Positions 3,201-64,000 of a stretch of DNA of 64,000 bases are shown one piece after another. Source of the DNA: Apostichopus japonicus (lineage: Eukaryota; Echinodermata; Holothuroidea; Aspidochirotida; Stichopodidae); assembly GCF_037975245.1 (NCBI RefSeq), contig NC_092578.1:19922821-19986820 (forward strand), written 5' to 3'. The notes under the pieces are model-generated. The model was given only the letters and a program-made list of their open reading frames with translations, was not told where the DNA came from and made no database searches. The translations under genes were made by a program, and so were the position numbers. Every line of letters starts with the position of its first letter. Positions within the stretch are counted from its first letter, which is position 1.

Positions 3201-6200
3201 ACTTATAGTTATATATAGGTGTAGGCCTACTTATATATAACTATAAGATATGAACAGGCCTCAGCACAATATACTTATAGTATGAGGTTATATACTTATA
3301 GTATATAGCCTCAGCATAAAGGATAAACAGCATGTTATGTGGAAGCCCTCCCCCTCGAAAGCACATGACATCATCTCAAACACAGCCTATATTAAACAAA
3401 AACAGGCTGGATGTTTCTAAGATATTTGAAAGAATATCATTTCATGAGTTAATTTCTTAGATACACAAAGAGCACTCCATAGAGGCCTTGCGGTTATTAC
3501 ACATAGCACTGATCACCATATATGTGATCTGATATTTCTTTACCATACTGGATGTCATCTAGCAAAAATATTGGGAGTGTTATAGAGGCCTTGCGGTTAT
3601 TACACATAGCACTGATCACCATATATGTGATCTGATATTTCTTTACCACACTGGATGTCATCTAGCAGAAATATTGGGAGTGTTATAGAGGCCTTGCGGT
3701 TATTACACATAGCACTGATCAGCATATATGTGATCTGATATTTCTTTACCATACTGGATGTCATCTAGCAGAAATATTGGGAGTGTTATAGAGGCCTTGC
3801 GGTTATTACACATAGCACTGATCAGCATATATGTGATCTGATATTTCTTTACCATACTGGATGTCATCTAGCAGAAATATTGGGAGTGTTATAGAGGCCT
3901 TGCGGTTATTACACATAGCACTGATCAGCATATATATGTGATCTGATAATATCTTTACCAAACTGGATGTCATCTAGCAGAGTTATTGGGAGCGTTATAG
4001 AGGCCTTGACGTCATCAAACAGAGATGGATCAATTCCTCTGTAGGTATCTGTTAGACTTTCTTTCAAGTTGCCTCTGATGGTTCGCTCATCAGAGTTGAA
4101 AAAATTCCCAAATGTCATCTCAGATGAAAAATATTCTTTGTCAGCTGTAAACGCTATGGCACCAACAAATCCTCGCACATCTGTAAAGTTCACATCATCC
4201 CCTCCTTGATGTAAATTTGTCAGCTGGTTTTCCAAGGCTTGCAGAATTCGTGAGGGTGCTTCCACTGAAACACTCTCCTCATAGGCATTCTCCTCCAAAT
4301 CTAGAACATTATCAACAATCTCGACAGTGTTACTGGTTACCTGTAAACATGAAATGTAATCATTATTGTTACAATAACTGATTTATAAACACGCTAAGAA
4401 TTGACAACTAATCAAATTATTTTGGTCTTTAAGTTGCCATAACGATGACATTTACAATGATTGCTTAATTAATGGCAAGTTATTACCAATGTTGTGAAAA
4501 TGTTTGTGTTCAAACTAATGAAGAGAGCTTATATATATTATTGGTGACCTAGGCTGTGACCTAGGCTGTTATAGGTGGTTTACTCACTGAATCATCATTT
4601 GATGCTTCTTTACACACCTTAGTGTGACCATTTGTGTTCTTTCAAGAATTTCTTAGTTTAACTTAAAAACCTTCAAGGTAATAAATTTCATTTCAAATTA
4701 CCTCTGGCGATGAGCTGTTCACATTAGTTATTATCTTGAGGAGTTCTGCAACATGATCCAGATCTCCACCATCAAGATCAACAGTTCCAGTGACATCAGC
4801 CACGTCACGAGACACCTGTGTCACATTATCCGCTGTGACTGGATTGTTTTCCAAAGTCTATAAATGGAATCATAATGTAAGAGACACAGACACAGCCTGC
4901 TAGGAAGCAACTGATAATAAAGTTGAAGCTCAAAAGAAATTTCTGTTTTGATAGAATAAAATTGAGCCATGATAAGCTATAAAGGCATTGACCTCTCAGG
5001 CTGTATACTAATTAGTGATTTAGTCATGCAGTGATTTAGCCTTGCATACTCAGATACAGTCAAATAAACACATACATTTGTCAAGCTGTCAATGTTCACT
5101 TCCACTGACAATTAGGAACAAGCCAGCAGATGTTAATTCTTTTAAGTCTCAATACGTGTTTGCTGATGAATTTTCGAAATAAAACTTCCAAAGCAGATTC
5201 AATGTTTCTTATTCTAAATGCACTCTGAACAGGTGGGTTTCATAGAGAAAGCTGTCACAATCAAAAGAAAGAAATTAATTTTTTGTTGCCCTGATTGGCG
5301 TATGATCTGTTGGACGGGGCTTGCAAATTTTGATTGAAGTTTGTAGAATCTACAGACTCTTAAGACAGTTAATAAATCTGGTGAATTTTAGTTAGCTCAA
5401 AATGTTTAACGACAGATAACTCAATACAAATAGTGAACATTGATATGTAAGTTGCATAGAACAGTGTCATTTTCACTAAGCTTTTAGTGCAGTAAGCTGG
5501 AAAGGTTGAAGTTTAAATTTGACTTTAATTTCTACATCCTGAATTTCATGTTACATATGGCTCCTTATAACACAACTGTTGGTAACCACATACCCTTTGT
5601 TCAATAGATGACAAGAGACACATTTCATGGAGGTTGAAGTTAAACACCATCTCCATGCAAGTTAATTTAACTCATCATAATTACCCAACAATCTATAGGT
5701 AACACAATATGATTGCACACTGATGAAGTAAGATATTCTCGTTATTATCAAGAAATCGTTGGAAGAGCAAACATATGTTGCCATCATGAGAACTCATTCA
5801 GTGCTGTAATCATGCAGGAATTTAGGTCCAAAGCTTGTAGCAACTGAACTATCAAGCCCTTAGTTGTTGGGCAATCCTAACTTATCTTATCTATGATAGA
5901 GTTATGTGTAAGCAGATACAGAGAACTTTAATCTGCTAGTTTTAAATGCTAGCAATTGATAGTCAGTTACCTCTACAAGAGTCTCAAGAATATCTGTGTC
6001 TTCTTCACTCTCCTCTCCATCGAAGCAGTTGTTCAAGACAGGATCCTGCCAGACACTAGGAGACACAAAATTACCTGTGCACATCCTTGTAGCCCTCGGA
6101 GATCCCCCTTAAGAAAACAAATGGTCACATAACTCATGGTCACATGGTTCACATGAGTCACAGTAAATGGTCACATAACTCATGGTCACATGAGTCACAG

Positions 6201-12200: not shown

Positions 12201-15200
12201 GTATTTTGTATATTCGATGGTGTTTTAAGAGAGTAGCTATTACTCGTAGTGTACTCGCAAAGACGTTTTTGACTGTATAGTAAGGGCAGTGGCGGAGCTA
12301 GTGGTATTGGTCGGGGGGGGCAAGAATGATCTGTAGAGGCGCTTTCGACACTATCTAAGCGGAGCGCCACCACAGGTTGGCGCGATGCGTACAGAAAATT
12401 TTTGAGTTAAGATACTCCCTAGATTGCAGGAAATGACCCTTTCCGGGCCTTGCTAATTTGCAGATAAACGGAGAATAAATAGGTGTCGTCGCCATTTTGT
12501 CGGAAAATTACACCAACAGAATATGACATATGTCAATAGGTAGATGAGAGCGCAATAAAATAGTCAATAATCGCGAATAAGTAAAAAGTAGTGAAAAGCT
12601 GAAAAGGGCGTCAGCAGTCCATTTGAGTCCGTCAGGGGGGGGGGGCATCCGCCCACTAACTGTATGGACGCTCCGCCACTGAGTAAGGGGATGTTGGAGA
12701 ACTGGCTGAAATGAGGCAAGTCATTGGCCTAAGACTAAGTTGTGTTGCGCTTACCGGTACTCACACTCACTGCTTCCACTTTTCACGGGGCGTGAAGACG
12801 CGGTTGGGGGGACAATGTGGTCTATATAGCCAGGGGACGGACGAGGGTCCCCCAGCATGTACTAAAATTATTACACCTATATAGTGTACGTGTGCATTCG
12901 ACAGATCGACAAGTATGCATTGAAAAATGGGAAGATGCACGTTTCAGAGCCTTGGTTAATATTGGAGGGGGCTTATCATGCATTTGCCCCCTCAACATTT
13001 TCATTGGGGGGGCTAGCCCCCCCAAGCCCCCTGGTTCCGCCGCCACTGACCCCTCCCCCTACTATCATTACAACTATAGCTTCTGATTGTTTGCCCATGC
13101 ATACACCCCTCCCCCTACTATCATTACTACTATACCTTCTGATTGTTTGCCCATGCATACACCCCTCCCCCTACTATCATTACTACTCTAGCTTCTGATT
13201 GTTTGCCCATGCATACACCCTCCCCCTATCATTACTATTATACCTTCTGATTGTTTGCCCATGCATACACCCCTCCCCCTACTATCATTACTACTCTAGC
13301 TTCTAATTGTTTGCCCATGCATACACCCCTCCCCCTACTATCATTACTACTCTAGCTTCTGATTGTTTGCCCATGCATACACCCTCCCCCTATCATTACT
13401 ATTATACCTTCTGATTGTTTGCCCATGCATACACCCCTCCCCCTACTATCATTACTACTATACCTTCTGATTGTTTGCCCATGCATACACCCCTCCCCCT
13501 ACTATCAATACTACTATACCTTCTGATTGTTTGCCCATGCATACACCCCTCCCCCTACTATCATTACTACCATACCTTCTGATTGTTTGCCCATGCATAC
13601 ACCCCTCCCCCTACTATCATTACTACTATACCTTCTAATTGTTTGCCCATGCATACACCCCTCCCCCTACTATCATTACTACTCTAGCTTCTGATTGTTT
13701 GCCCATGCATACACCCCTCCCCCTACTATCATTACTACTGTACCTTCTGATTGTTTGCCCATGCATACACCCCTCCCCCTACTATCATTACTACTATAGC
13801 TTCTGATTGTTTGCCTATGCATACACCGCCCTCCCCCTACTATCATTACTACTGTACCTTCTGATTGTTTGCCCATGCATACACCCCTCCCCCTACTATC
13901 ATTACTACTATACCTTCTAATTGTTTGCCCATGCATACACCCCTCCCCCTACTATCATTACTACTCTAGCTTCTGATTGTTTGCCCATGCATACACCCCT
14001 CCCCCTACTATCATTACTACTGTACCTTCTGATTGTTTGCCCATGCATACACCCCTCCCCCTACTATCAATACTACTATACCTTCTGATTGTTTGCCCAT
14101 GCATACACCCCTCCCCCTACTATCAATACTACTCTAGCTTCTGATTGTTTGCCTATGCATACACCCCTCCCCCTACTATCATTACTACTATACCTTCTAA
14201 TTGTTTGCCCATGCATACACCCCTCCCCCTACTATCATTACTACTCTAGCTTCTGATTGTTTGCCCATGCATACACCGCTCCCCCTACTATCAATACTAC
14301 TATACCTTCTGATTGTTTGCCCATGCGTACACCCCTCCCCCTACTATCATTACTACTCTAGCTTCTGATTGTTTGCCCATATGTACACCCTCCCCCTACT
14401 ATCAATGCTACTCTAGCTTCTGATTGTTTGCCCATGCGTACACCCCTCCCCCTACTATCAATGCTACTATACCTTCTGATTGTTTGCCCATGCATACACC
14501 CCTCCCCCTACTATCAATACTACTCTAGCTTCTGATTGTTTGCCTATGCATACACCCCTCCCCCTACTATCATTACTACTATACCTTCTAATTGTTTGCC
14601 CATGCATACACCCCTCCCCCTACTATCATTACTACTCTAGCTTCTGATTGTTTGCCCATGCATACACCGCTCCCCCTACTATCAATACTACTATACCTTC
14701 TGATTGTTTGCCCATGCGTACACCCTTCCCCCTACTATCATTACTACTATACCTTCTGATTGTTTGCCCATATGTACACCCTCCCCCTACTATCAATGCT
14801 ACTCTAGCTTCTGATTGTTTGCCCATGCGTACACCCCTCCCCCTACTATCAATGCTACTATACCTTCTGATTGTTTGCCCATGCATACACCCCTCCCCCT
14901 ACTATCATTACTACTCTAGCTTCTGATTGTTTGCCTATGCATACACCGCCCTCCCCCTACTATCAATACTACTCTACCTTCTGATTGTTTGCCCATGCAT
15001 ACACCCCTCCCCCTACTATCAATACTAATATACCTTCTGATTGTTTGCCCATGCATACACCCCTCCCCCTACTATCAATACTACTCTAGCTTCTGATTGT
15101 TTGCCCATGCATACACCCCTCCCCCTACTATCAATACTACTCTAGCTTCTGATTGTTTGCCCATGCATACACCCCTCCCCCTACTATCATTACTACTATT

Positions 15201-26354: not shown

Positions 26355-27479
26355 ACCGACACTTAGGACTGAATGAACCTGAGATGATGTCTACTATACC
26401 ATATATGTTAAATTACCTTGTAATCACTCTCTGTAATATAGAAGAAGGTTTCCACAAATAACACTGAATTGTAAATCAGCTATCCTGAATTGAAACAAAC
26501 AATCTAGTCCCTACATGGTTTAGGAATCTATATAGTAAAACCAAACAAGATATTTGTCAGTGCATAATGATTATACATGGCAATTTTCTTTTAATAATTC
26601 TTGGAACAATTAAGGGAAGCCTCACATTAGGGAAACAGTCCCCTTACACCGAAGGTGCAAAATTTCCACTTGAATTGTTGCATAGTGGCTGCTTATCTGG
26701 CTATACCACACATGGTTGAGCAGGTTTTGCAAGATCAGAATGACCACAAGATCGCTTATGCGAACTAATTTAATTAAACCAAAGTTTCACAGGACATAAG
26801 GATTATATGCACTTCAATGAGCAATCAAGACAGTATAGAGTGTATAGCTGAAATGGTATTGAGTCTATTGACTTCTTAATATGTACTGTGTTGAGTGGAA
26901 GACTTGTATTTAAAACTCACCTTTGTACATGTCAAGACCTCAACTATCTTAAGAAGTTGTAACTATGTTACTATAACACAGATTTAGGATGAGAGAAAAG
27001 TTGCTACATTGCTTATATAAAGGCAGTTAAACACAAGGTTGATGTGTCAGCTTTATGCCTGGCAAATACATAGCTGAAGGGCAAAATTATATTCTCTATG
27101 TTATTGCGAGTCCATGATGCATGTGAACTGGATGGAAAACTATTTGAGATTAACTGAAAGTCTTCTACTGTGTTTCAATTTCATGTCGTAGGCACACCAA
27201 TCCTTTCACCAAAGAGTGATTACAATGATAACTTTTGCATTATGAATCTTATTTGCTGTTTTTTACAATATATATTTTTTTATATTGCTTCCTGACTTTG
27301 TTCAGCTATTACATTATATCAGCTCTTGGGTATTGAAAGTTTCAACGCGCATGTTGAAATAACTAGCATAGTGTTGGTTTCCAAAACTTTCCAGTTATTA
27401 TTTGCAAGCCCAATTTTTGATAATTCTTTTATTTCCATTTTTTTTTGTAGTTGTCTCCACTTTACAGCTTTAATTGTTT

Positions 27480-27640
27480 TGTATCTGTACATTTAATTGT
27501 TTTTGTATTGCTATGTTTTAATTTTTATGTATAACGTTGAATGTAAAAAGCAGGGCCTTATTGGAAACCAACTTTTGCTGAATAAGCAACCCTGGATAAA
27601 AATGCGAATAAATAAAAAATAAAAAATGTCGGGCATTCGG
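27480..27640 (+). repeat. Possible retroelement 3' tail inside the left palindrome arm
   Basis: The text ...ggccttattggaaaccaact, tttgctgaataagcaaccct and then aaataaataaaaaataaaaa looks like the 3' end of a non-LTR retrotransposon (a conserved stem-like segment before an A-rich repeat). The mirror copy is at about 32190-32350 in the right arm. This rests on overall look only. Confidence 0.35.
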
Positions 27641-29919
27641 GCCCTCCATACACTCGCTCAGCGCCCGCAACACAATTTCATAATCTAAGGTACCTCCCAC
27701 CGACCATCCTATTGATATTATGTGCTATTCGCCTCATAAGAATAGGAGGATGCTGTTAGCATTGAATGTTATTTTAAGGGCATCCGTAGATACAAATTGG
27801 CACCCGTGATCAAATCTCCGTATATTTATTTAACTCGGTTAGCGTAAAGCTAACTTCTCCCGAGGACCTGAAGTATATCATAACCAATAGTGAAATGAAA
27901 AATATAATAATATACAATAATAATAAGAACATTAATATAAGAAAATCAATAATGACTGGGAGTCATTTTTCCAAGAACAGGAGCCATTTCTGAAATCACG
28001 TAAAGGTTGCCACATATTCCAAACTATACTATAGTATAAGCGCATGAAAAGAAGAACGATAGCCGCCCGTTTTTTCCCTTCAGATCTCAGTACGAGAAAC
28101 ATGTATTTTATTTGTATAATAGAACAACTTTCGTTAATATTTTCCTACCCTAGCTATATGTCGATTTTATAAAACCTTCATGAAAACAGACTTTTTAAAA
28201 ATGGATTTTGAAGCTCAGTCAACAATTTAAGAAATGCTTAGGCCTACCGTTAAATACTGGCGTCAAAAAATCCACAACGGATAACAATGCTAAGTAGAGC
28301 TTACTTAAAGAGAAATAGAAACTGCATGGACATCATGGTCATTTTAAGTATCCAAGTACTATACAAAGAGATCGAGTTCACCGAAACATCCCTTTTCCTT
28401 ATCACCTGAGGAAATCCGTCTTTTATAAATTATAGTAGGCCTACCATACAGTACTTTACATTTGATACAAAAGTTTCTTCTATACAACAATTTACCAAAA
28501 TTTGTATGTGTCGCAATAGTTTAAGTTTTAACCAAGGGCAGTACCATTCATAATTTGCATATTACACCAAAATTTACAATCGGCGTCCAGATGGCGGGAA
28601 AATGTAACATAATGTTCAATCTGTTGGGTCGTTCCCATGGTGCGATGAACTTGGGCAAGTTGCCAAGTTCGAACGTCGATGACCTACTTATGTTCCGTGA
28701 CCAATGTCAATGGGAATTATGTGTGTAAAAACTCGTGTTTTTCCACGTGTAATATATATAGAAGTTTCACGTAAGGGGAACGAATTTCGGGGCGGCTCGT
28801 TGATTGTGAGGAAGCACTTATCTAATCATCAATTTTTGTGAAAAATATCGTACGTTTTTTTTTTCCAGAAAATGTTTTTGACTAGTAATTGGAAACTCAA
28901 TGTATCAAGAAGTACTGGGTCTAGACCTTATCATTGCATTTTGGGGGAAGACAGATCTTCAAGTGCAAAATATTGTTTTTTCATTCAAGGTTATCGTGGT
29001 TTTCTTGCGAGGTGTATACGGCGTAACTTTCGATGTATAGGCTTAGAATTAGGATCGGCCGATGGTTTAGTTTGCATGAATTTTTACCTAAATTCAATTT
29101 AATTTAACGGGAATCACTAAGCATGTCGGAGAGACAGGACATGACTTACTACTAATACTTTAAGTTTAAAAGTTCACAATGAAAAGTTTTTAACTATCAA
29201 CAAGTCCCCACCTGTTTGGAACTTCAGACAATAATAATGTAAGATAGGGGCTACATAAATACGGGATTATAAACTACATACATAAGAATAGTACAGATTT
29301 ATTCATATCGTTTATCGGCTGTTGTTTACTCCAGAAAATATACTTTCAATACGTACAATATCAATCTTCGTACAAAAGTTCTTAAAAATAAAAAAGTAGC
29401 GAAAGATAACTAGAAATGACATCGTGGAACCCCCCGCATTAATAAACGAATCCATTTCATTACAGCATCAACTCTCAAGTACCGCACAGCAGTGTGTAAC
29501 AGTACCGTAGCTATAGGCTATAGTAATATACAGTCCCTTGCGAAGATGGATTTAATTTGATATGCTCCCTTCGGTTTTGGATCAAAAATTATTAAATCGT
29601 TATAATTATTAAAACAAAATGTGGTGAAATGCATAATGGTGAGATTTTGTACATGGGAACCTTCACAATCATCATTTGCAGGAAGAATAAATAACGAAAA
29701 TTTCTGAATAACTTTGAGGTCTCGTAACATGCTGAGCATAACTAACGTTCGATATTTGGTGTAGCCTAGGTCCAAATTACTACGTGAAAAGTTGATTTGT
29801 TAATATGTCTAGGCCAGTGCGTAAATTGATAAGATATTATTCAAACTAAGAACACAGGAACCAGAAATAAATGTGTTTTCTTTTCTCTAATTCAAATAGT
29901 AACACGTAGATATTTTTTA

Positions 29920-30095: not shown

Positions 30096-33000
30096 GAAAT
30101 AGCCTATCTTCCTCCAAAATTGGTACATTGTACTTAATGCAACTCTTCTCGTGCATGTAACAAAGGCTTGTATGTATCCTATGTATGTTAATGGCCCGAA
30201 AAGCGCCAAGAATAGTTACCCAAACTTTTCCATCTCAAAAATTATCTCAAACAAATCATCCATCTTCAATCTTTACCAAAATGTTAATTTTAATACCTAA
30301 TTCTTACACTCCGACGTTATTTTGAGCTTATGTTCAATATAATTCCGTTTATGAACAAATAAAAAATATGCCGAACTTAGTGTTTAACTTCCTTGTTCGT
30401 TACTATTATTAACTCCATTCAAGCTCAATTAGAAAATTTAAGCTTAGGCCAATCAAACTAAGTAAATGGTGACAACGTAACTAGTGTAGGATTACTGTTT
30501 AACGTTTCAGATTGATATAAAGGAATAATAAGAACTAAAAACAACTCCAATGATGTTTCTTATAATAACAAATTGCATTTACTTGTGCAGCATTAATTTG
30601 AACAAAAATATAGAAAACCGTATTCATAGGCCCGTTCTCAATGTTGGATTCGAGGCACATGAAAATCTCAGGTTTGGATGTAGTAACGTTTGGGAAATTT
30701 CCAAGCGTCGTTTATGAAAATTAGCGGTCGTCTGGTGTTATGTATTAAAGGCGAGCCAGGCGCGGAAAAATCAGGAACCAGTGAATAAAAATCACGAAAA
30801 TCCGAACCGGCAGCTAAAGGGAACTAAGACACGGAATACACACATATGTCGCGAGTACTGTATGTACGCCTGTAGCTATAGCTGTGCATGCCTGTGAACA
30901 ACATTTATTTGTTCATCATTTGCATATATAGCTGACACAATAGCTAATGTCGCGAGCAAACCGCATGTTCGTTGGTCCGTGTGATAGGGTTAAGATAGGT
31001 GTAAGCAGAGCTGAACACCCCGAAATTCGCTCCCCTTACGTAAAACTTCTATATATATTACACGTGGAAAAACACGAGTTTTTACACACATAATTCCCAT
31101 TGACATTGGTCACGGAACATAAGTAGGTCATCGACATTCGAACTTGGCAACTTGCCCAAGTTCATCGCACCATGGGAACGACCCAACAGATTGAACATTA
31201 TGTTACATTTTCCCGCCATCTGGACGCCGATTGTAAATTTTGGTGTAATATGCAAATTATGAATGGTACTGCCCTTGGTTAAAACTTAAACTATTGCGAC
31301 ACATACAAATTTTGGGAAACTGTTGTATAGAAGAAACTTTTGTATCAAATGTAAAGTACTGTATGGTAGGCCTACTATAATTTATAAAAGACGGTTTTCC
31401 TCAGGTGATAAGGAAAAGGGATGTTTCGGTGAACTCGATCTCTTTGTATAGTACTTGGATACTTAAAATGACCATGATGTACATGCAGTTTCTATTTCTC
31501 TTTAAGTAAGCTCTACTTAGCATTGTTATCCGTTGTGGATCCGTTGTGGATTTTTTGACGCCAGTATTTAACGGTAGGCCTAAGCATTTCTTAAATTGTT
31601 GACTGAGCTTCAAAATCCATTTTCAAAAAGTCTGTTTTCATGAAGGTTTTATAAAATCGACATATAGCTAGGGTAGGAAAATATTAACGAAAGTTGTTCT
31701 ATTATACAAACAAAATACATGTTTCTCGCACTGAGATCTGAAGGGAAAAAACGGGCGGCAATCGTTCTTCTTTTCATGCGCTTATACTATAGTATAGTTT
31801 GGAATATGTGGCAACCTTTACGTGATTTCAGAAATGGCTCCTGTTCTTGGAAAAATGACTCCCAGTCATTATTCATTTTCTTATATTAATGTTCTTATTA
31901 TGATTGTATATTATTATATTTTTCATTTCACTATTGGTTATGATACTTCAGGTCCTCGGGAGAAGTTAGCTTTACGCTAACCGAGTTAAATAAATATACG
32001 GAGATTTGATCACGGGTGCCAATTTGTATCTACGGATGCCCTTAAAATAACATTCAATGCTAACAGCATCCTCCTATTCTTATGAGGCGAATAGCACATA
32101 ATATCAATAGGATGGTCGGTGGGAGGTACCTTAGATTATGAAATTGTGTTGCGGGCGCTGAGCGAGTGTATGGAGGGCCCGAATGCCCGACATTTTTTAT
32201 TTTTTATTTATTCGCATTTTTATCCAGGGTTGCTTATTCAGCAAAAGCTGGTTTCCAATAAGGCCCTGCTTTTTACATTCAACGTTATACATAAAAAGTA
32301 AAACATAGCAATACAAAAACAATTAAATGTACAGATACAAAACAATTAAAGCTGTAATGTGGAGACAACTACAAAAACAAATGGAAATAAAAGAATTATC
32401 AAAAATTGGGCTTGCAAATAATAACTGGAAAGTTTTGGAAACCAACACTATGCTAGTTATTTCAACATGCGCGTTGAAACTTTCAATACCCAAGAGCTGA
32501 TATAATGTAATAGCTGAACAAAGTCAGGAAGCAATATAAAAAAAATATATATTGTAAAAAACAGCAAAGAAGATTCATAATGCAAAAGTTATCATTGTAA
32601 TCACTCTTTGGTGAAAGGATTGGTGTGCCTACGACATGAAATTGAAACACAGTAGAAGACTTTCAGTTAATCTCAAATAGTTTTCCATCCAGTTCACATG
32701 CATCATGGACTCGCAATAACATAGAGAATATAATTTTGCCCTTCAGCTATATGTATTTGCCAGGCATAAAGCTTACACATCAACCTTGTGTTTAACTGCC
32801 TTTATATAAGCAATGTAGCAACTTTTCTCTCATCCTAAATCTGTGTTATAGAAACATAGTTACAACTTCTTAAGATAGTTGAGGTCTTGACATGTACAAA
32901 GGTGAGTTTTAAATACAAGTCTTCCACTCAACACAGTACATATTAAGAAGTCAATAGTCAGATGATGAAATCATTGCTTGTTATGTCTACAATGAAACAA

Positions 33001-40123: not shown

Positions 40124-40248
40124 CCAGTTTCTGCTACCTTTGGCTTTTTCAACCAACTTTTCTTGGAGTTGCTTCCCAACGCCATTTTGAAATTCTTCGA
40201 TGATTTTCTTGGTCTTCTCGATCTCTTCATGTGTGGCAAAGACTTTCA
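40124..40248 (-). CDS. Copy A exon 2
   Basis: 125 nt, the same length and phase as copy B exon 2. It reads KVFATHEEIEKTKKIIEEFQ and ends KAKGSRNW, a family helix (…F-x-x-G-V-G-x-x-L-Q…N-W). A 40- to 60-bp minisatellite starts a few bases upstream of its acceptor. Confidence 0.88.
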
Positions 40249-40254
40249 CTGTAG

Positions 40255-40465
40255 ACAATTGATTGATTAATTGATTGAATTGTTGGCTGAGAGGTGTGTT
40301 CATAGTTTGATTAATTGAATTGTTGGCTGAGAGGTGTGTTCATCGTTTGATTAATTGATTGATTGATTGAATTGTTGGCTGAGAGGTGTGTTCATCGTTT
40401 GATTGATCGATTGATTGATTGAATTGTTGGCTGAGAGGTGTGTTCATCGTTTGATTGATTGGAAA
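40255..40465. repeat. Minisatellite next to copy A exon 2
   Basis: About four units of gaattgttggctgagaggtg followed by tgttcatcgtttgattgatt, with variable (attg)n. It abuts the acceptor side of exon 2. Confidence 0.88.
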
Positions 40466-48900: not shown

Positions 48901-51900
48901 ATGTCATTGTCTTCTTAAAGTAAATTGACACCAGTCAAAGTCATTCAGCCACTTTCATTGAAACAACTTTTCAAATTTTTTCTTTTAATTTTCCATAGCA
49001 TTGATCCTCTTTAGCTTGGTGCCCAATCCTTGCAAATTTCGAGGAAGATGGTTCTTTTGTAGATCTGTAGATGCAACTTGTTCCTCAACAGTACAACTGT
49101 ATGAACAAACAGTGCATGTAGAAAACTGCACTTTTACCTGATAATTAAGTCGATGGTTGATGTATTGAATCATTAACTTCCTGTGTCTCAGAAGGCTTTT
49201 CTTTCCCCTGTTACTACCTTAAAGTGAGTGAAGAATCGCGCACAAAGAAATAACTGACCTAGTTTTGAATGAGGTGTAACAGCAGTGTTAGACACCACCA
49301 TCGATCCCAGCAAATGCACACACAGCTTGCTACCGTCGGTAATTGAACACTAGGGTACAGTCAATACATGCAGCCTCGGTCAATACCAACAACATTGGAC
49401 ATCTCAGGTCCAGATAAAAGATAACAAGGTATCACGTTTCATTACTGTCTACATTTTGTAGCGACAAGAAAAAAACTTCACTTGCAAGAAACGGAAAGTT
49501 AACTTTGTTCAGAGAGCGGCACACCCTTTGTGGCGAGTCTGCCTGTAAGGTCTGAAACAAACTTCAACAAACTCATCCTCCTTGATTCTTGACTCAGTCT
49601 TCATTTTTGTTTATTTCTTTTGTTGTGTTTATATAGTGTAATCTAAAATGTGATTGTTTTCTCATGAGAACAACTGGGATCAAGAAATTGACAACCTCTT
49701 GACCCTTTCTCATTCTGCTACGTACACTCAAGTTCCAAGTGCATGACAATTATACCCAAATTCATTCTGAGGAAATGTCTTTGATGGCAAATATTACACA
49801 GGAGAGAAAATCTAGAAAATCCTGTTGCCTCAGCAAGTTACATGTGAAATCTTTGGATACATGCTTCAGACTTATAAGCTGATATCGTAAAACCAAAGTT
49901 ACTTTAGTAACCTTAATATAGAGCAAACATGTAGTAGTTGCATGCAGAGACCTCTCTTTAGAGTATATAATAAAGTCAAATAGGCCATGAAAAGAATTTA
50001 AAATACAAATCATAGAAAAATTGATAATTAACTGACATATTTTGGATGAAGACTTACTCTTCTTTGCATAAGTTATAGAATATTGCATATCCGTCTTCCT
50101 TCATAGGAGCTACTCCGCCATTGCCTGCCCAGTATCCTAAAAGACTGGTAGACAGGACAAAGTTACCACCACCACCACTGTCATCCAAACAAAGAAAAAA
50201 GAAAGAATGATTGAAGGAAAACAATCACATTCACAATCATTACATGTTCTTCCAAAATCAGCTCTATGTTAGCTGTCATTATTTTCCATTTTCTTCTTCT
50301 TCTGACTAACCTTTTAGTAAAGGAGGGATCAGTGAATATTTCTGGGAGGTCATACCCCTCTTCTTCTGATACTGCGTAAAGTCCAAGTAGATGCCGGTCA
50401 CAGCCCTGTCCTTCCATTGCTTGTGAACCTAGCACCATGTGAGTGGTCACTGCTGCCCTCATCAAGTCCAACTTGTCTCCATTCTGCAAAGGAGAACCAT
50501 GGACCATGGATAATGAATCCAACTTCACAGCAAAATGTGAAGAGTCTTACCCACAACAATATCTCCTACAGCAAATTTAGACAATTTCTTCGACCATCAT
50601 TTTTTAATTTATATGTATCCCATCATGCAATATACATCCCATCATGCAATATACATCAGCAGATTAATAAAGTGTTAATCCACAGGTTACATGTCTAGCG
50701 CCATAACTGACAGATCTCGGCAAGTCTAATAGTAAATACTTCCATAGCACATCCAAGCTTACACCTATTTACCTTCATGTATGCAACCCTGGGCAGACAT
50801 TTATGATCAATTAAAGGGACGGCTGGTAATATCCTTTATTCCCCCCCCCCCGCCACCCCCCTTCATCTCCTTGGATTTATGGATTTATTACATTGTACTA
50901 TTATATTGTGAAATACACTCATTTGTAATTTGGCTTTATGAACTTCTACAGTGATGACACTTCGAACAGCATAAATAACACAAGCCAGGGAACAATGAAA
51001 TGGAGCAATAAGTTTTAGATTATAGATTAAATGTCAAAAATAATGTAAATATGATTCTGCAAATAAATCATCCAGATTACTTTTAAGTAGAGTATATTAA
51101 AGCAACTTGCAACCCTCAGTGATTGTGCTTGCTGTACATATTAATTGATAAAAACATAATTAAAGGAAAATTACAAGAAAAGCAAATTATTCAAATTTTT
51201 ATGTATTTGAAGGATTACTCACTGTTGCTGCTGGGTCATTCATTGCCTTGCACCAATCTGCAACCTCAGAGGAACATGTTCTGATGGTTGCTGTACGCCC
51301 ATGGTAAAACTGTCTAGTGGTGGCAGTCTCATAACATGGACCAAGTCTGGTTTCAAACAAAACAAACTTGTCAAGTTTTTGTTTTGCTTTATTTTATTTT
51401 TTAAAAGGTTTTTTTGTGTTTTAATTTCATTAGAAATTTACATTTTACTCCATCAATGTACTTTTTATGCACATTGAAACAAACAGTTTAAATGGTTTAA
51501 ATTAGGTTTAAATTAAATTCCTTCAAATACTTACTGTATATTACATAGCCAGGTGCATATGAGAGGACAGACTGCTTTTAAGTATTATAGGTCAATGCTA
51601 TTATACCCAATAAACAATTAAGGCAGAAGGTATGAGTAGACTTACTTTGAATGTTTTGTGAAGTATGTTAGTTGTATGGCCAGTTGCATCCACCCATCTG
51701 GATGGAACCCACTGTTCTTGACCCAAACTCTCCCATATAATGGGAAGCAACTGCAATAAACATCACATTTAGCTGCCTGCAACAAATGTTGTACACAATA
51801 TTTATCAAGAAGAAGAAGAATATGGAATTAACTAGATAACAGAAACAAATTAATTTTCTAGTTTAATAACCCAATTTTCTGTCATCTCCATGTATGCCTG

Positions 51901-54900
51901 ACTTATACAAAAAAAGAAGCAAAGTAGCAAGTCAAAAATGAAATCAATATAAACATATTTCTTTTATCTCTTTATATTTTATTCGTTGTCTTGCCTAAGT
52001 ATAATTGAGCATTCAAACATATTTGAAATTTTTTTTTATATTTTTTTTATATGTGAAAGACAGCTTAATAGTTATTAAGTTCATTGTGACTTTGCATTCC
52101 CAAAGAAGTTGACAGCAAGCTAGAAGAGAATATGTTTGTGTAAATGAGGTAATGATGTTGTATATGTAGAACTCTGTAGTTACAGTAGCTCCCTGTCTAA
52201 ACCAGGCAGATATAGAAACAGCTAGATAATATATGTAGAACACTATAGCTAGCTCCCTGTCTAAACCAGGCAGCTACAGAAACAGCTAGATAATATATGT
52301 AGAACACTATAGCTAGCTCCTTGTCTAAACCAGGCAGAACACTATAGCTAGCTCCTTGTCTAAACCAGGCAGCTACAGAAACAGCTACATATTATATGTA
52401 GAACACTATAGCTAGCTCCCTGTCTAAACCAGGCAGCTACAGAAACAGCTACATATTATATGTAGAACACTATAGCTAGCTCCCTGTCTAAACCAGGCAG
52501 CTATAGAAACAGCTAGATAATATATGTAGAACACTATAGCTAGCTCCCTGTCTAAACCAGGCAGAACACTATAGCTAGCTCCCTGTCTAAACCAGGCAGC
52601 TATAGAAACAGCTAGATAATATATGTAGAACACTATAGCTAGCTCCCTGTCTAAACCAGGCAGCTATAGAAACAGCTAGATAATATATGTAGAACACTAT
52701 AGCTAGCTCCCTGTCTAAACCAGGCAGAACACTATAGCTAGCTCCCTGTCTAAACCAGGCAGCTACAGAAACAGCTAGATAATATATGTAGAACACTATA
52801 GCTAGCTCCTTGTCTAAACCAGGCAGAACACTATAGCTAGCTCCCTGTCTAAACCAGGCAGCTACAGAAACAGCTAGATAATATATGTAGAACACTATAG
52901 CTAGCTCCCTGTCTAAACCAGGCAGAACACTATAGCTAGCTCCCTGTCTAAACCAGGCAGCTATAGAAACAGCTAGATAATATATGTAGAACACTATAGC
53001 TAGCTCCCTGTCTAAACCAGGCAGAACACTATAGCTAGCTCCCTGTCTAAACCAGGCAGCTATAGAAACAGCTAGATAATATATGTAGAACACTATAGCT
53101 AGCTCCCTGTCTAAACCAGGCAGAACACTATAGCTAGCTCCCTGTCTTAACCAGGCAGATATAGAATGGCTAGATAATATATGTAGAACACTATAGCTAG
53201 CTCCCTGTCTAAACCAGGCAGCTATAGAAACAGCTAGATAATATATGTAGAACACTATAGCTAGCTCCCTGTCTAAACCAGGCAGAACACTATAGCTAGC
53301 TCCCTGTCTTAACCAGGCAGATATAGAATGGCTAGATAATATATGTAGAACACTATAGCTAGCTCCTTGTCTAAACCAGGCAGAACACTATAGCTAGCTC
53401 CCTGTCTAAACCAGGCAGATATAGAATGGCTAGATTCCTTTGATAAACATTCAGCACAATGACAGTTAGAACTTCTATGTAATGAGATCTGACCAAACAT
53501 GATTTATAGATTCTGGCACTAGCATTGTACCAATGTTATCCTGTTTAATATATTCAAACAACAGCTGATAATACACCCAGTAATTGTGTAAAACTGGCTT
53601 AATTTTGAAATATTTTGTACTTGTTGATTTATTTTTCTGTTTTCTTCCAGATAGCAAATAGAGATAAGATGGACATATGGAAACATATTCAATAACAGGA
53701 TATACGATTGTTAGCTAGAAATATTACCAGTAAATATCACAAACTGTAATTAAGCTCATCATTGTGCATACCAAAGCCAAACGATAATTTATCATAACTA
53801 AACCAATACTTAAATCTTATGAATAATTTTGCAAGAAAAGTTTGTTTAACACAATTAAAAATAATTTAATTATTGTTTTACACCATGCATTTGTGTATAG
53901 TGTGAACCTACCAACTTGACATAGGTATCTTTGGCATGTATCTGTGCCTGCTTGACTTTCTCATCTATTACAAAGATCAGTTCTTGTGGTACTGCTCCAT
54001 CAGTCCTAACATCTGGTTTACCCTGTTAGTTCACATCAAAGAATAATAATAAACAGCGATGAACAATCCAAACGTATGCATGTTCTATTTCATTCATTGT
54101 TTGTAATTCCTAATTCTCAGTAGAAACTGTTCGTATATAAGTATACACATGTAACGTTACATAACGGTTACTCACTTGACTCTAACTGATAAAGCCACAA
54201 GGATTGGGTGGTTTTAGAACAAAATGGTCATGATCTACACAATAGCAAAATGGTAAATCACTAGCTAAACAATAGCATAATGGTCATCAGCTAAAACAAT
54301 AGCAAAATGTTCATCAGCTAAACAATAGCAAAATGTTTATCAGCCAAACAATAGCAAAATGGTAATCAGCTAAACAATAGCAAAATGGTCATAACTAAAC
54401 AATAACAAAATGGTAATCAGCTAAACAATAGTAAAATGGTCATCAGATAAACAATTAGGTCAATTGTCATCAGATCATTTAAACAAGAGCAGAGACCACA
54501 GAAAGTTGGCATGAAATATTTAAATTGGTTTTCTCTGTATACAGCTCACCATCCAATCAGTGGTTGTTCTTGCTATGATTTCATCAGCCCATGTATTAAA
54601 TATCGTACCAATTATTCCTTCATATGGACAGTGCTGTTGATAACAAAAAAAGAATTATTTTAATAGGACTAACAAATTCCTTTCTCCGTTCTCTCTGATA
54701 GCCATAAAATAAATACGACTGAATATGACTGGTAAAGTGAAAAAAACAAACTTATTCACAACAAACCAGAAACAAAACAGAAGATGGACCATCTTGCAAG
54801 CAATACCTAATGCAAAATCTCACTTATTGCTTTGCTTTACTATACTCCCAAAACATAATTAATGTGCCCACACATTTTTCTTGCTGTTTGCCTGGTGTGA

Positions 54901-61405: not shown

Positions 61406-62030
61406 ATATATAATATAATCAATCATAAAAAATTAATTATATTGTAACATGAATAGCAGCATCAGATTTTGTTACATATAAAAAGAACATAGAACCAATC
61501 AGGTAGTTGGGAGTTGGACTGTAATATAGTGTTACCAGCAATTCTAGCTTGTTGATTGGGTAGGAGGAGAGTCTGTTTGTGTAAAATTCCTTAATTTTGT
61601 AAATCTTGAGGGTGTAGGATCTGTGTGTCCGGCATGTAAATGCTTTTCCATTTATTTCCTGTTCTGTGTAATCTATGATCAATTAAACTGAACATACTAA
61701 AATTTGACCAACTGTATCTGATCTGAACTTTTCTCATTTCTGTCTTTTCCCCAAAAAACTTGAGACACAAAAGGCAACATCTACATCTCCCTGTTGGTCC
61801 AGGTAGTCACATGAACCTTTAAGGTAAAGGCAATCAGTTTGTTTTGTGAATGTCCCACATTTCAGGGTTCACTTATAATAACCAGTTAACAAATGAATTA
61901 CTTACCCAGTTCTTTGAAGATTTGGCTTTTGCTTCTAGTTTTTGCTGCAACTCTTTTCCAACATCTTTGCTGAACTCATCAACAATCTTCTCTGTCTCTT
62001 GATACTCTTCGACAGTAATGAATGGTTTCA
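45788..62030 (-). CDS. CRAT: Carnitine O-acetyltransferase-like enzyme, copy B (exons 2-15; exon 1 not in window)
   Basis: Fourteen exons in consistent phase give about 572 residues to the stop: 62030-61906, 61347-61166, 60379-60249, 59806-59695, 58157-58070, 57409-57296, 55810-55706, 54633-54550, 54022-53912, 51776-51646, 51346-51223, 50483-50311, 50177-50058 and 45908-45788. With the missing first exon (about 36 residues, judged from copy A) the length fits the family (about 600-640). The family moves short acyl groups between CoA and carnitine, buffering acetyl-CoA in mitochondria and peroxisomes. Present are NRWFDK-type CQDRWFDKSF, the catalytic His (GD|HCPYEG), GRTATIR, DRHLLGL, STS and the C-terminal S-x-x-T-C-x-E-T. 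The Thr in GRT and Arg in DRHLL are the carnitine-type residues; choline acetyltransferase has Val and Asn there. The C-terminus …ECKL fits a peroxisomal PTS1. Acyl chain preference cannot be read. Confidence 0.9.
46020..46905. repeat. GGT-rich minisatellite; 112-bp units then degenerate part
   Basis: Three and a third 112-bp units (gtaaatgtatacagtagtgg recurs at 46055, 46167, 46279 and 46391) are followed by about 500 bp of ggtggtagt/gatgtttgtg variants. The valine- and threonine-rich reading frames on both strands are by-products. It lies in the last intron of copy B. Confidence 0.93.
47565..48150. repeat. 58-bp minisatellite
   Basis: About ten units of gagagggtcaaaactcagtt, atatagggtgacatccttac, tggcccagtgcaaacaat. 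Shortened units lacking atatagggtg occur twice at a fixed spacing, showing block duplication. Confidence 0.92.
48151..49214. other. Part of the last intron of copy B, nothing recognised
   Basis: AT-rich sequence without visible coding or repeat structure. Confidence 0.45.
49215..49540. repeat. Dispersed repeat, copy 2 (pairs with 10657-11040)
   Basis: The same order of shared blocks as copy 1 (gtgaagaatcgcgca, gaatgaggtgtaacag, gttagacaccaccatcg, gataacaaggtatcacg, cattttgtagcgaca), with different short indels. It begins ttaaagtgagtgaag. Confidence 0.75.
50058..50177 (-). CDS. CRAT: Copy B exon 14 (STS motif)
   Basis: 120 nt, reading GGGGNFVLSTSLLGYWAGNG and then GVAPMKEDGYAIFYNLCKE. S-T-S and D-G-Y-x-x-x-Y are family motifs. 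The Gly run after the splice site is unusual. Confidence 0.9.
50311..50483 (-). CDS. CRAT: Copy B exon 13 (DRHLLGL motif)
   Basis: 173 nt, reading NGDKLDLMRAAVTTHMVLGS, then QAMEGQGCDRHLLGLYAVSE, then DLPEIFTDPSF after a short acidic stretch. Arg in DRHLLGL binds the carnitine carboxylate in known carnitine acyltransferases. Confidence 0.94.
50484..51222. other. Intron, nothing recognised
   Basis: AT-rich, with a poly-C run near 50840 and a short direct repeat (cccatcatgcaatatacat) at 50618-50655. Confidence 0.5.
51223..51346 (-). CDS. CRAT: Copy B exon 12 (GRT motif)
   Basis: 124 nt, reading LGPCYETATTRQFYHGRTAT and then IRTCSSEVADWCKAMNDPAA. Y-E-[TS]-A-x-x-R-x-F-x-x-G-R-T-x-x-I-R is the family core. 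Thr in GRT is the carnitine-type residue. Confidence 0.94.
51646..51776 (-). CDS. CRAT: Copy B exon 11
   Basis: 131 nt, reading AAKCDVYCSCFPLYGRVWVK to WMQLAIQLTYFTKHSK. P-D-x-[FW]-x-Q-x-A-x-Q-L is the family motif. Confidence 0.9.
52165..53430. repeat. 64/37-bp composite minisatellite
   Basis: Long units (agctacagaaacagctagat, aatatatgtagaacactata, gctagctccctgtctaaacc, aggc) alternate with short ones (agaacactatagctagctcc, ctgtctaaaccaggc). The long-short pattern repeats regularly, so the array grew in larger blocks. It lies in the intron between exons 10 and 11 of copy B. Confidence 0.93.
53912..54022 (-). CDS. CRAT: Copy B exon 10
   Basis: 111 nt, reading GKPDVRTDGAVPQELIFVID and then EKVKQAQIHAKDTYVKL. 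Donor GTAGGT, also weak in copy A, so the unusual donor is shared by both paralogues. Confidence 0.88.
54225..54470. repeat. About 25-bp minisatellite
   Basis: About nine units of aacaatagcaaaatggtcat(cagcta). Confidence 0.88.
54550..54633 (-). CDS. CRAT: Copy B exon 9 (catalytic histidine)
   Basis: 84 nt, reading HCPYEGIIGTIFNTWADEII and then ARTTTDWM. The exon border falls exactly before the catalytic His. H-x-P-[FY]-[DE]-G is nearer to choline acetyltransferase style than to vertebrate CRAT at this spot. Confidence 0.92.
54634..55280. other. Intron, nothing recognised
   Basis: AT-rich sequence upstream of the SINE. No coding or RNA signal was seen. Confidence 0.4.
55283..55505 (+). mobile_element. 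tRNA-derived SINE
   Basis: The head ggagtgttagctcagtggtt (A box) and ggttcgagtc (B box) is spaced like a tRNA promoter, with ggagtg/cactcc able to pair as an acceptor stem. The T stem does not pair, so it is not a working tRNA. The body ends gcggctttgataagcc and gcgagttcctgcttgcagga. The same cctgcttgcaggagga tail appears at 19849 before (atac)n. Confidence 0.78.
55706..55810 (-). CDS. CRAT: Copy B exon 8 (RWFDK motif)
   Basis: 105 nt, reading LFLADLSGINCQDRWFDKSF and then NTIYFESGAIGFVGD. Phase 0 at both ends. Donor GTAAGT. Confidence 0.93.
56425..57130. repeat. 52-bp minisatellite
   Basis: About 13 units of cacacccaatgttatgttgc, ttgcccctcacccaccccca, acccagctca. The last three units have acaaacacacacacaccatg in place of the standard join. 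The His/Pro-rich frames across it are by-products. Confidence 0.93.
57296..57409 (-). CDS. CRAT: Copy B exon 7 (no counterpart in copy A)
   Basis: 114 nt, reading TYEHLLCLDPINQNHLETIQ and then SAIIAVSLDNENPKNLSE. It matches the N-x-x-x-L-x-x-I-x-x-x-I-x-x-V-x-L-D segment of relatives. Confidence 0.9.
57515..57705. repeat. About 21-bp minisatellite
   Basis: About nine units of aggagaatgttctcatgtta(t). The inverted part gagaatgttctc makes each unit self-complementary. Confidence 0.9.
58070..58157 (-). CDS. CRAT: Copy B exon 6 (no counterpart in copy A)
   Basis: 88 nt, reading QLTYIKENSAKSGQGIGVLT and then ADDRTSWAQ. G-x-L-T-x-x-x-R-x-x-W-A is highly conserved in the family. Confidence 0.93.
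58300..59115. repeat. 26-bp minisatellite, about 31 units
   Basis: Unit tggccacccttccctcccct(gtattc), with a/t and c/t changes shared in blocks. Strongly strand-asymmetric (pyrimidine-rich on +). It lies in the copy B intron between exons 5 and 6. Confidence 0.94.
59695..59806 (-). CDS. CRAT: Copy B exon 5 (no counterpart in copy A)
   Basis: 112 nt, reading SEGPCPNHMVVFCNGHIFKM and then EMFDENEEQFGSYEIL. It matches the H-I-x-V-x-x-x-x-x-F-x-x-x-V strand region of the family. Donor GTGAGT. Confidence 0.88.
60249..60379 (-). CDS. CRAT: Copy B exon 4
   Basis: 131 nt, reading EKLPVMRSGKGDKVFSMHQY and then FFFSTSRVPGEPKDGVARYF after an R. S-x-R-x-P-G-x-P-x-D is the family motif. The donor reads GTGCAT, weaker than the others. 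Confidence 0.88.
60400..61165. other. Intron, nothing recognised
   Basis: AT-rich. No repeat or coding signal was seen. Confidence 0.4.
61166..61347 (-). CDS. CRAT: Copy B exon 3
   Basis: 182 nt, reading LEEWWEDLAYLRNRAPIAVL to TVTKYFDIIRK. W-W-x-x-x-A-Y-L-x-x-R is conserved. An (AT)n tract (61354-61405) lies just upstream of the acceptor. Confidence 0.92.
61354..61405. repeat. (AT)n microsatellite beside copy B exon 3
   Basis: About 50 bp of (at)n directly before the exon 3 acceptor. Copy A has its long (AT)n beside exon 8 instead. Confidence 0.93.
61906..62030 (-). CDS. CRAT: Copy B exon 2
   Basis: 125 nt, reading KPFITVEEYQETEKIVDEFS to LEAKAKSSKNW, with a GTAAGT donor. The first about 20 nt and the acceptor of this exon are the seed of the 75-bp array immediately upstream. 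It starts in phase 1, so an upstream exon is required. Confidence 0.9.
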
Positions 62031-63652
62031 CTGGAGGAAGCAATGCAACAATATACATTCATTATAACAACAAATGGTACTCTTATACAGTAATGAATGG
62101 TTTCACTGAAGGAAGCAAAGCAACAATATACATTCATTATAACAACAAATGGTACTCTTCTACAGTAATGAATGGTTTCACTGGAGGAAGCAATGCAACA
62201 ATATACATTCATTATAACAACAAATGGTACTCTTATACAGTAATGAATGGTTTCACTGAAGGAAGCAAAGCAACAATATACATTCATTATAACAACAAAT
62301 GGTACTCTTCTACAGTAATGAATGGTTTCACTGAAGGAAGCAAAGCAACAATATACATTCATTATAACAACAAATGGTACTCTTATACAGTAATGAATGG
62401 TTTCACTGAAGGAAGCAAAGCAACAATATACATTCATTATAACAACAAATGGTACTCTTATACAGTAATGAATGGTTTCACTGGAGGAAGCAAAGCAACA
62501 ATATACATTCATTATAACAACAAATGGTACTCTTATACAGTAATGAATGGTTTCACTGGAGGAAGCAAAGCAACAATATACATTCATTATAACAACAAAT
62601 GGTACTCTTATACAGTAATGAATGGTTTCACTGGAGGAAGCAATGCAACAATATACATTCATTATAACAACAAATGGTACTCTTATACAGTAATGAATGG
62701 TTTCACTGGAGGAAGCAATGCAACAATATACATTCATTATAACAACAAATGGTACTCTTATACAGTAATGAATGGTTTCACTGGAGGAAGCAAAGCAACA
62801 ATATACATTCATTATAACAACAAATGGTACACTTATACAGTAATGAATGGTTTCACTGAAGGAAGCAAAGCAACAATATACATTCATTATAACAACAAAT
62901 GGTACTCTTATACAGTAATGAATGGTTTCACTGGAGGAAGCAAAGCAACAATATACATTCATTATAACAACAAATGGTACTCTTTTACAGTAATGAATGG
63001 TTTCACTGAAGGAAGCAATGCAACAATATACATTCATTATAACAACAAATGGTACTCTTATACAGTAATGAATGGTTTCACTGAAGGAAGCAAAGCAACA
63101 ATATACATTCATTATAACAACAAATGGTACTCTTTTACAGTAATGAATGGTTTCACTGAAGGAAGCAATGCAACAATATACATTCATTATAACAACAAAT
63201 GGTACTCTTATACAGTAATGAATGGTTTCACTGAAGGAAGCAAAGCAACAATATACATTCATTATAACAACAAATGGTACTCTTATACAGTAATGAATGG
63301 TTTCACTGAAGGAAGCAATGCAACAATATACATTCATTATAACAACAAATGGTACTCTTCTACAGTAATGAATGGTTTCACTGGAGGAAGCAATGCAACA
63401 ATATACATTCATTATAACAACAAATGGTACTCTTATACAGTAATGAATGGTTTCACTGAAGGAAGCAATGCAACAATATACATTCATTATAACAACAAAT
63501 GGTACTCTTCTACAGTAATGAATGGTTTCACTGGAGGAAGCAAAGCAACAATATACATTCATTATAACAACAAATGGTACTCTTATACAGTAATGAATGG
63601 TTTCACTGAAGGAAGCAAAGCAACAATATACATTCATTATAACAACAAATGG
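62012..63652. repeat. 75-bp tandem array, about 21-22 units, carrying the exon 2 splice acceptor
   Basis: The unit is cagtaatgaatggtttcact, g(a/g)aggaagcaa(a/t)gcaac, aatatacattcattataaca, acaaatggtactctta. On the minus strand each unit contains ttgcttcc(t/c)(t/c)cag followed by TGAAACCATTCATTACTGT, the real acceptor and first 19 nt of copy B exon 2. Units differ at only a few sites, so expansion is recent. As 75 is divisible by three, frames stay open on both strands over 1.6 kb. Confidence 0.96.
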
Positions 63653-64000
63653 TCTTTAAATTTGCCTGTTAACATTTTACACTCCACTTTTTTTAGTTTT
63701 CTTAACTAACTAATGACAAACTGCAACTTTAATGACTATTCCTTTTTTTCTTATAAATTCCTGATCTCTTTATCTACATGATTTTCAATTCAAAGAGTTA
63801 CAAGTTGACTAGGGCACCGCATCATTTTATCGATCCCATGATGGTTTTATCTTTGATGTCAATGCATGAACTTGGCCTCTGGTGACGCCCCTTTTCTTAT
63901 CTCTCCCTGAGTATCTGATTTGCTCTAATTATCACCCTTGATATGTAAACAAATCAACTTCCATCATTTAATTAGAAGAAGACCTCTAATCAGCTAAAGC
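63653..64000. other. Right window end, nothing recognised
   Basis: The sequence past the 75-bp array shows no LPxLPVP-type exon. Exon 1 of copy B is therefore probably further right. Confidence 0.5.

Follow-up and report, generated by a model that had tools for sequence, protein, structure and literature searches.

A mirage-like minisatellite across the intron 1/exon 2 boundary of a carnitine octanoyltransferase-like gene in a sea cucumber

Minisatellites that lie across exon-intron boundaries have been described in lancelets as "mirages", in Adh3, the globin genes BflGb6 and BflGb9, troponin C and, in imperfect form, PGBD5 (sections of PMC3087553 and PMC3902484). On the donor side, in BflGb9, the units cover the 3′ boundary of an exon; splice signals are repeated in donor-side and acceptor-side arrays alike, and RNA data, length polymorphism and somatic instability have been reported for lancelet mirages (PMC3087553). 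The data on Adh3 and the RT-PCR of globins given there suggested that splicing across the arrays is regular. Here we describe an array of 75-bp units that is built like the acceptor-side array of BflGb6, with tandem units of intron end plus exon start (PMC3087553), but is hosted by an echinoderm, almost certainly the sea cucumber Apostichopus japonicus. A lancelet origin was rejected on mitochondrial code and gene order. Among the matches listed in sea cucumber, echinoderm and sea urchin literature, a search with most subscription papers outside its scope, no mirage was reported outside lancelets.

Anatomy of the array and its host gene

The array occupies positions 62003..63653 (minus strand) of the window, by which we mean the whole 64-kb stretch of DNA analysed, and crosses the boundary between intron 1 and exon 2 of a gene that we call CROT-B. 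TRF assigned it a period of 75, 22.0 copies, 97% matches, 0% indels and a score of 3106, which is far beyond chance. Read on the minus strand, each unit consists of approximately 44 nt of intron end followed by approximately 31 nt of exon 2 start; TGAAACCATTCATTACTG opens 22 array copies at a spacing of exactly 75 nt between neighbours and is preceded by CAG in every one of them, the acceptor thus being kept throughout. Real exon continuation is found only from the copy starting at 62030, which leaves a tally of 21 decoy acceptors and one true one. The true AG (TTGCATTGCTTCCTCCAG/TG) lies at 62031..62032 on the minus strand, where the KYLES-VKPF junction is gapless against solved CROT chains, and the decoys fill 62033..63653 on the same strand, each followed by its exon-derived stretch of about 31 nt. 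The first-pass annotation had described a ladder of near-identical acceptors, multiplied about 21-fold and seeded by exon 2, with only the last unit entering the real exon and its AG at 62031-62032, and the unit list bears out this description. The limits found by TRF are slightly wider than those it gave, and the exon-derived part of each unit is about 31 nt long and not 19.

Units match exon 2 with a mean identity of 0.91 over 31 nt, a value that drops to 0.83 once 34 nt are compared. All 21 decoys differ from the exon in the same two places, +20 (C/A) and +29 (T/C), and over the 31 exonic nt the decoys are 0.982 identical to one another on average, as against 0.87-0.94 between decoy and exon. 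These shared differences, together with the high decoy-decoy identity, point to the amplification of one founder unit from which the edge copy was left out. An RNA-family scan of the 64-kb window gave no matches.

Judged by homology, the host is a peroxisomal carnitine octanoyltransferase-like gene, and would thus belong to fat metabolism. Pfam detected the choline/carnitine acyltransferase domain PF00755 in CROT-B, with E 2.7e-10 at exon 2 (61906..62030, minus strand; 125 nt, phase 1 to phase 0, donor TGG/GTAAGT), an exon whose alignment with a solved CROT chain covers KYLESVKPF...NW. When 12 of the 14 located exons, the other two having been identified by eye, were joined and compared with PDB, CROT was matched at E 1.8e-109 and carnitine acetyltransferase at 4.8e-56, with ChAT and CPT2 weaker; since the best match is CROT over CRAT, CPT2 and ChAT, the gene groups with CROT. 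All 14 exons are open; the last CROT-B exon gave no match.

A paralogue, CROT-A, has an exon 2 of the same 125 nt at 40124..40248 (minus strand; tblastn), which is 57% identical to CROT-B exon 2 over 42 residues. An unrelated minisatellite (40258..40461, minus strand; TRF and sequence) ends about 10 nt before it, and was rejected as a splice-site array as it touches the acceptor region without spanning the boundary. Downstream of the window there is also a near-identical CROT fragment which, in the portion examined, holds exon 10 and its flanks alone and is therefore of no use as an array-free comparison.

Reading frame and splice signals of the decoys

The frame in which the array would be read is set by CROT-B exon 1, found just beyond the edge of the window (L007 1419-1529, minus strand). 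In this frame all 21 decoy acceptors lead to an early stop, 6 or 13 codons past the junction codon, with KPFITV* or KPFITVEEYHLLL*/KPFITVKEYHLLL* as the decoy readings; used-frame stops are present in every array unit, and decoy use would lengthen exon 2 by 75-1575 nt. The earlier suggestion that splicing to a wrong unit could either add repeated peptide or end translation is consequently narrowed to its second half, because a stop so soon after each upstream acceptor means that repeated peptide cannot be added.

Acceptors were scored with a small weight matrix built on 16 acceptors. The true site scored 3.7, whereas 13 of the 21 decoys scored 5.4-5.5 and the other eight 3.7-3.8, and sequence strength alone would favour the decoys. 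We also considered whether a decoy acceptor and a donor inside the unit might together delimit a micro-exon. With a score of 2.3, the best GT within the array is weaker than every one of the 15 donors in the donor matrix (leave-one-out, lowest 3.4), and the idea was therefore set aside.

Other splice-site arrays in the same genome

Three further mirages were identified, one at a donor in an adhesion-GPCR-like gene within the window and two at successive donors in CCT8. The first has a 103-bp unit repeated 5.1 times (3479..4008, minus strand; TRF), with the true donor after 3959 and four more GGTAAAGA donors; the true donor scores 3.4 and the four copies 4.0-4.2, so that here too sequence strength would favour the decoys. 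Since it precedes a GPS motif on the same strand (2081-2362, E 3.1e-15), the exon that carries this donor (3959..4340, minus strand) was placed in the GAIN region; by itself it matched no Pfam family and nothing convincing in PDB. In CCT8 the arrays lie on two successive introns, one holding seven copies of the donor with a spacing of 121 bp and the other 11 with a spacing of about 46 bp, and a gapless alignment of the joined exons to CCT8 (E 3e-73) identifies the outermost copies as the true donors. Within the 46-bp array the sequence GTATGTTGTTTCAG, in which a donor and an acceptor-like AG are adjacent, occurs nine times. In each of the three donor arrays, read-through reaches a stop codon no later than the first decoy unit, and all four arrays have their true site in the outermost copy, the one that gives the shortest exon.

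Two other candidates were rejected for failing to span a boundary: an array near another chaperonin exon (L035 5645-5703), which stops about 44 nt short of the acceptor, and an array at L040 444-1192, which starts about 25 nt past a donor. Globins carry mirages in lancelets; here, none of four matches to globin exons had a TRF array closer than 300 nt. Many tandem arrays with units of tens of bp occur elsewhere in the window (TRF). In a survey that covers few genes, arrays were present at four of 120 splice sites checked, compared with 13-17% of random positions; an attraction of arrays to splice sites was thus rejected, the sites being depleted if anything.

Explanations and comparison with known systems

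The reading that we favour, and consider likely to be correct, is that the CROT-B array is a passive slippage minisatellite, tolerated rather than used. It would have originated in a single tandem duplication of a 75-bp piece astride the intron 1/exon 2 boundary, and slippage or unequal exchange could then have expanded it to 22 units. The copy joined to the exon would have been held by selection on the protein, while those on the intron side were presumably able to drift freely and to homogenise among themselves. Through exon definition, the spliceosome would take the outermost acceptor, which is nearest the exon 2 donor. The reading frames of the CROT-B and CCT8 exons, being open, lend indirect support to regular splicing despite the arrays. 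Any transcript spliced at a decoy would meet its early in-frame stop and, if nonsense-mediated decay operates in this animal as we assume, should be lost, so that the array may persist without being put to use. The occurrence of the same structure on unrelated genes and the lancelet splicing data speak against a special tuning role.

Such a role would make the array a splicing rheostat, in which the number of units sets decoy use and a longer or shorter array adjusts the amount of productive CROT-B mRNA by way of poison extensions of exon 2. Minisatellites commonly vary in length, all 21 decoys retain the AG and pyrimidine tract, 13 of them score well above the true site, and a stop in every decoy product is what a poison-exon design would need; length variation has also been reported for lancelet mirages (PMC3087553, in the sections available). 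However, with 97% unit matches the intact decoy signals are accounted for by high unit identity without selection, the same structure in the chaperonin and receptor-like genes suggests a general by-product, and the lancelet cases were seemingly spliced regularly (same sections of PMC3087553). We therefore regard the rheostat as unlikely. Were it true, more units would bring more decoy splicing and less functional CROT-B mRNA, and copy-number variation between animals would become expression variation. The broader proposition, that splice-site minisatellites recur in echinoderms and lancelets with the long ladders acting as length-dependent poison-exon rheostats, we hold to be quite unlikely.

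It is very doubtful that new introns or exons arise from the array, with a unit turning into a real exon once an internal donor is used. A model of this kind has been published for lancelet globins (PMC3087553, in part), and the ninefold donor/AG pair of the CCT8 46-bp array would suit it, but in CROT-B the weakness of the best internal GT (2.3 against a lowest matrix donor of 3.4) and the used-frame stops of each unit count against it, and there is no sign here of such exon or intron birth. Translation of the array as a coding repeat is most improbable: a 558-aa minus frame and a 568-aa plus frame are both open across it, as a unit length divisible by three makes easier, but both stop close to the array edges, the unit is an intron end plus an exon start, and exon 1 enters a frame different from the 558-aa one, which contradicts this reading wherever exon 1 is spliced to the array. 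Assembly is known to have trouble with tandem arrays. HiFi reads, however, are usually longer than 1.65 kb. Given patterned unit differences across the array, three more arrays of the same kind in the assembly, and the HiFi reads behind the published assembly that this one fits (PMC10344927), a copy number inflated or invented by assembly is equally improbable.

The presence of four mirages in a small sample of the sea cucumber genome, two of them on successive CCT8 introns, suggests that the phenomenon is wider. With acceptor and donor ladders in one genome, these arrays are natural experiments on how the spliceosome chooses among near-identical sites. They also call for caution from genome annotators, who might take array units for exons or for repeated peptides.

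Ordinary intronic VNTRs and minisatellites resemble the CROT-B array in having tandem units of tens of bp; unlike them, it extends over a splice acceptor into the coding sequence that begins there. In alternative tandem acceptors, of the NAGNAG and similar types, several acceptors compete for one exon. The CROT-B array differs from these in its 75-nt spacing, in the full acceptor region carried by each unit and in the truncation of every alternative product. On its sequence organisation it is best classed as a mirage: the unit straddles a splice site, with intron sequence on one side and exon sequence on the other; the reading frame and the homology over the junction show that the authentic exon is reached from the outermost unit only; and CAG is present in all 22 units, where lancelet arrays carry the splice signal in many units but not all. 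As in lancelets (PMC3087553 and PMC3902484), homogenisation has affected the units inside the cluster but not the edge copy, here with two differences in 21 of 21 decoys and a decoy identity of 0.982. The array is longer in copy number, with 22 units compared with 6 and 3 in two BflGb6 haplotypes, and its 75-bp unit compares with 150-160 bp in BflGb6 and 10-72 bp in Adh3 (PMC3087553).

The CROT-B array and its host gene

The array lies at the boundary of intron 1 and exon 2 of CROT-B, which occupies 50-62 kb of the window and is one of two peroxisomal carnitine octanoyltransferase-like paralogues there. When 12 of its exon peptides are joined, with exon 1 taken from outside the window, they match chains of peroxisomal carnitine O-octanoyltransferase with E 1.8e-109, compared with E 4.8e-56 for carnitine acetyltransferase. 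Two further middle exons, both open, were recognised by eye within 61347-61165 and 60414-60244, and the exon matching gave no match for the last exon. Exon 2 (61906-62030, 125 nt, minus strand) matches PF00755, Choline/Carnitine o-acyltransferase, at E 2.7e-10 and ends in a good donor, TGG|GTAAGT.

TRF placed the array at 62003-63653, with 22.0 copies of a 75 bp period, 97% matches and no indels. On the minus strand the 22 copies open with TGAAACCATTCATTACTG at a constant spacing of 75 nt, each directly preceded by CAG (22/22), and the copy starting at 62030 continues into exon 2, leaving 21 decoys, that is, upstream units with a copy of the acceptor. The first-pass annotation, which had described an acceptor multiplied about 21-fold in 75-bp units with the last unit alone leading into the true exon, is borne out on both points. 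Each unit combines ∼44 nt of intron end with ∼31 nt of exon start; across these 31 nt the units share a mean identity of 0.91 with exon 2, dropping further out. The array is also open in one frame per strand (62003-63709, plus, 568 aa; 61979-63655, minus, 558 aa), which is likely to prompt false gene calls.

Relative to exon 2, every one of the 21 decoys is changed at positions +20 and +29, and their mean identity to one another across the 31 exonic nt is 0.982. As far as can be read from the sequence, this pattern fits the amplification and homogenisation of a single founder unit, with the exon-joined copy excluded. The positions that commonly vary, +21 and two others near the acceptor, do so in blocks one or two units long, which slippage or unequal exchange would be expected to produce.

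The paralogue CROT-A (33-43 kb, six exon matches) has an exon 2 of equal length and carries a minisatellite at 40258-40461, unrelated to that of CROT-B, which stops ∼10 nt short of this homologous exon. Outside the window, positions 1-2479 of the fetched stretch L009 partly duplicate the region around CROT-B exon 10 (window 51857-54094), including its 64/99-bp minisatellite, with 96.5% identity over 571 bp and 94.6% in the exon 10 peptide; tblastn found no other CROT exons in L009.

Decoy acceptors and their products

Exon 1, whose end is in phase 1, lies just outside the window (L007, an adjoining fetched stretch, 1529-1419, minus strand). Spliced to the acceptor at 62030 it reads ...KYLES-VKPFITVEEYQ..., gapless against CROT at the junction, while joining it to any of the 21 decoys brings a stop 6 codons (15 decoys) or 13 codons (6 decoys) past the junction codon. 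Use of a wrong unit would therefore end translation and cannot add repeated peptide, so that of the two outcomes proposed in the first-pass annotation only termination stands; likewise, the open minus frame it had read through the units exists, but exon 1 enters another.

A weight matrix built from 16 acceptors of the window scored the true CROT-B acceptor at 3.7 and the decoys at 5.4-5.5 (13/21) or 3.7-3.8 (8/21), real acceptors ranging from 2.3 to 11.1 (leave-one-out). It gave no indication that the decoys are weaker than the true site, although the matrix is small and its boundaries were placed from homology and AG/GT by eye. Judged by these scores, position must decide if the last acceptor is the one used. 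No strong donor was found inside the units, where the best GT scored 2.3, whereas the 15 donors used for a donor matrix scored 3.4-9.2.

Further splice-site arrays and their probable tolerance

An array at 3479-4008 (TRF, 103 bp x 5.1, minus strand) spans the donor of exon 3959-4340 and holds the true donor plus four more copies of GGTAAAGA. The surrounding minus-strand exons match LDL-receptor A, Ig (one match above the cut-off, one slightly below) and GPS domains, and would be adhesion-GPCR-like if all belong to one gene; no match was obtained to a transmembrane domain, and the donor-bearing exon had no Pfam match. In a wider sample of Cpn60/TCP1 exons (57 matches listed, 49 within fetched stretches, 46 in the TRF check) there were two donor-spanning arrays, which sit on successive introns of a single gene on contig C21: L037 8064-8921 (121 bp, 7 donor copies) and L038 383-924 (46 bp, 11 donor copies), each count including the true donor. 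Three joined exons of this gene match T-complex protein 1 subunit theta at E 3e-73, by which homology it is CCT8, and the gapless junctions establish that in each array the outermost copy is the true donor. The second array contains GTATGTTGTTTCAG nine times, a sequence in which 14 nt hold both a donor and an acceptor-like AG. In all three donor arrays, a frame running on past the exon reaches a stop no later than inside the first decoy unit. None of four globin exon matches had an array within 300 nt.

In 4/4 arrays the outermost copy, which gives the shortest exon, is the true site (last acceptor in CROT-B, first donor in the others), as called from homology across junctions for CROT-B and CCT8 and from the open frame alone for the adhesion-GPCR-like gene. 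Among equal sites, exon definition would choose the outermost. We propose that the spliceosome picks the outermost copy in this way, and we assume that mis-spliced products, carrying early stops, would be destroyed by nonsense-mediated decay; such a choice and the decay of mistakes would explain how an array is tolerated without any function of its own. A rheostat role for the array is a possible alternative.

Splice sites are not favoured targets. Among 33 sites checked in the window (17 acceptors, 16 donors), an automatic local-repeat test at 80% identity flagged one; with the adhesion-GPCR-like donor, whose four copies pass at 70% and fail at 75%, this makes 2/33, against 17.4% of 4000 random window positions at 80%. 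The chaperonin loci, with 87 matrix-placed sites (43 acceptors, 44 donors), gave one automatic flag plus the other CCT8 donor, which has 6 local repeats after homology-based boundary placement (2/87), against 13.0% of 6000 random positions. Combined, 4/120 splice sites lie in arrays (2/120 automatically) against ∼17 expected from coverage, although sites border exons and are not strictly comparable with random positions, and some matrix-placed boundaries must be expected to be wrong, so that misses are possible. Arrays are common in this genome and strike splice sites occasionally; they show no attraction to such sites, and some of those that strike one are probably removed by selection.

Genomic setting and lancelet mirages

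The genome comprises 671,581,487 bases in 35 contigs: C24-C34 of 130 kb or less, C35 of 16,099 bases, and 23 others, of which the 14 checked each exceed 18 Mb (18.20-46.04 Mb). The summary figures of a published HiFi assembly of Apostichopus japonicus are 671.6 Mb in 34 scaffolds, with 23 chromosomes of 18.21-46.02 Mb (PMC10344927). C35 is mitochondrial, with the gene order cox1-nad4L-cox2-atp6-cox3-nad3-nad4-nad5-(nad6)-cob (genes named by eye) and nad1 and nad2 on the strand of cox1. Its COX1 has AAA, Asn under the echinoderm code, at 11 positions, several of which we take to be conserved Asn sites. Within the window, an inverted repeat (26865-28792 / 31018-32957) has arms of ∼1.94 kb, 98.1% identical and ∼2.2 kb apart. 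A minisatellite at 13049-15199 has 38.5 copies of a 56-bp unit, with 3.5 more at 11769-11966; the intervening 11966-13048 is 92% identical to L009 8351-9427.

Tandem repeats over exon-intron boundaries, termed mirages, are described in lancelet Adh3, the globin genes BflGb6 and BflGb9, troponin C and, imperfectly, PGBD5. Globin RT-PCR and the Adh3 data suggest that splicing there is regular, and instability, both in length and somatic, has been reported (PMC3087553; PMC3902484). None of the literature matches listed, judged from their listings, reported mirages outside lancelets. The CROT-B array belongs to this known kind as a new member, in an apparently new phylum for it: as in BflGb6, the unit joins an intron end to the start of exon 2, and the CROT-B ladder is longer than the BflGb6 cases.
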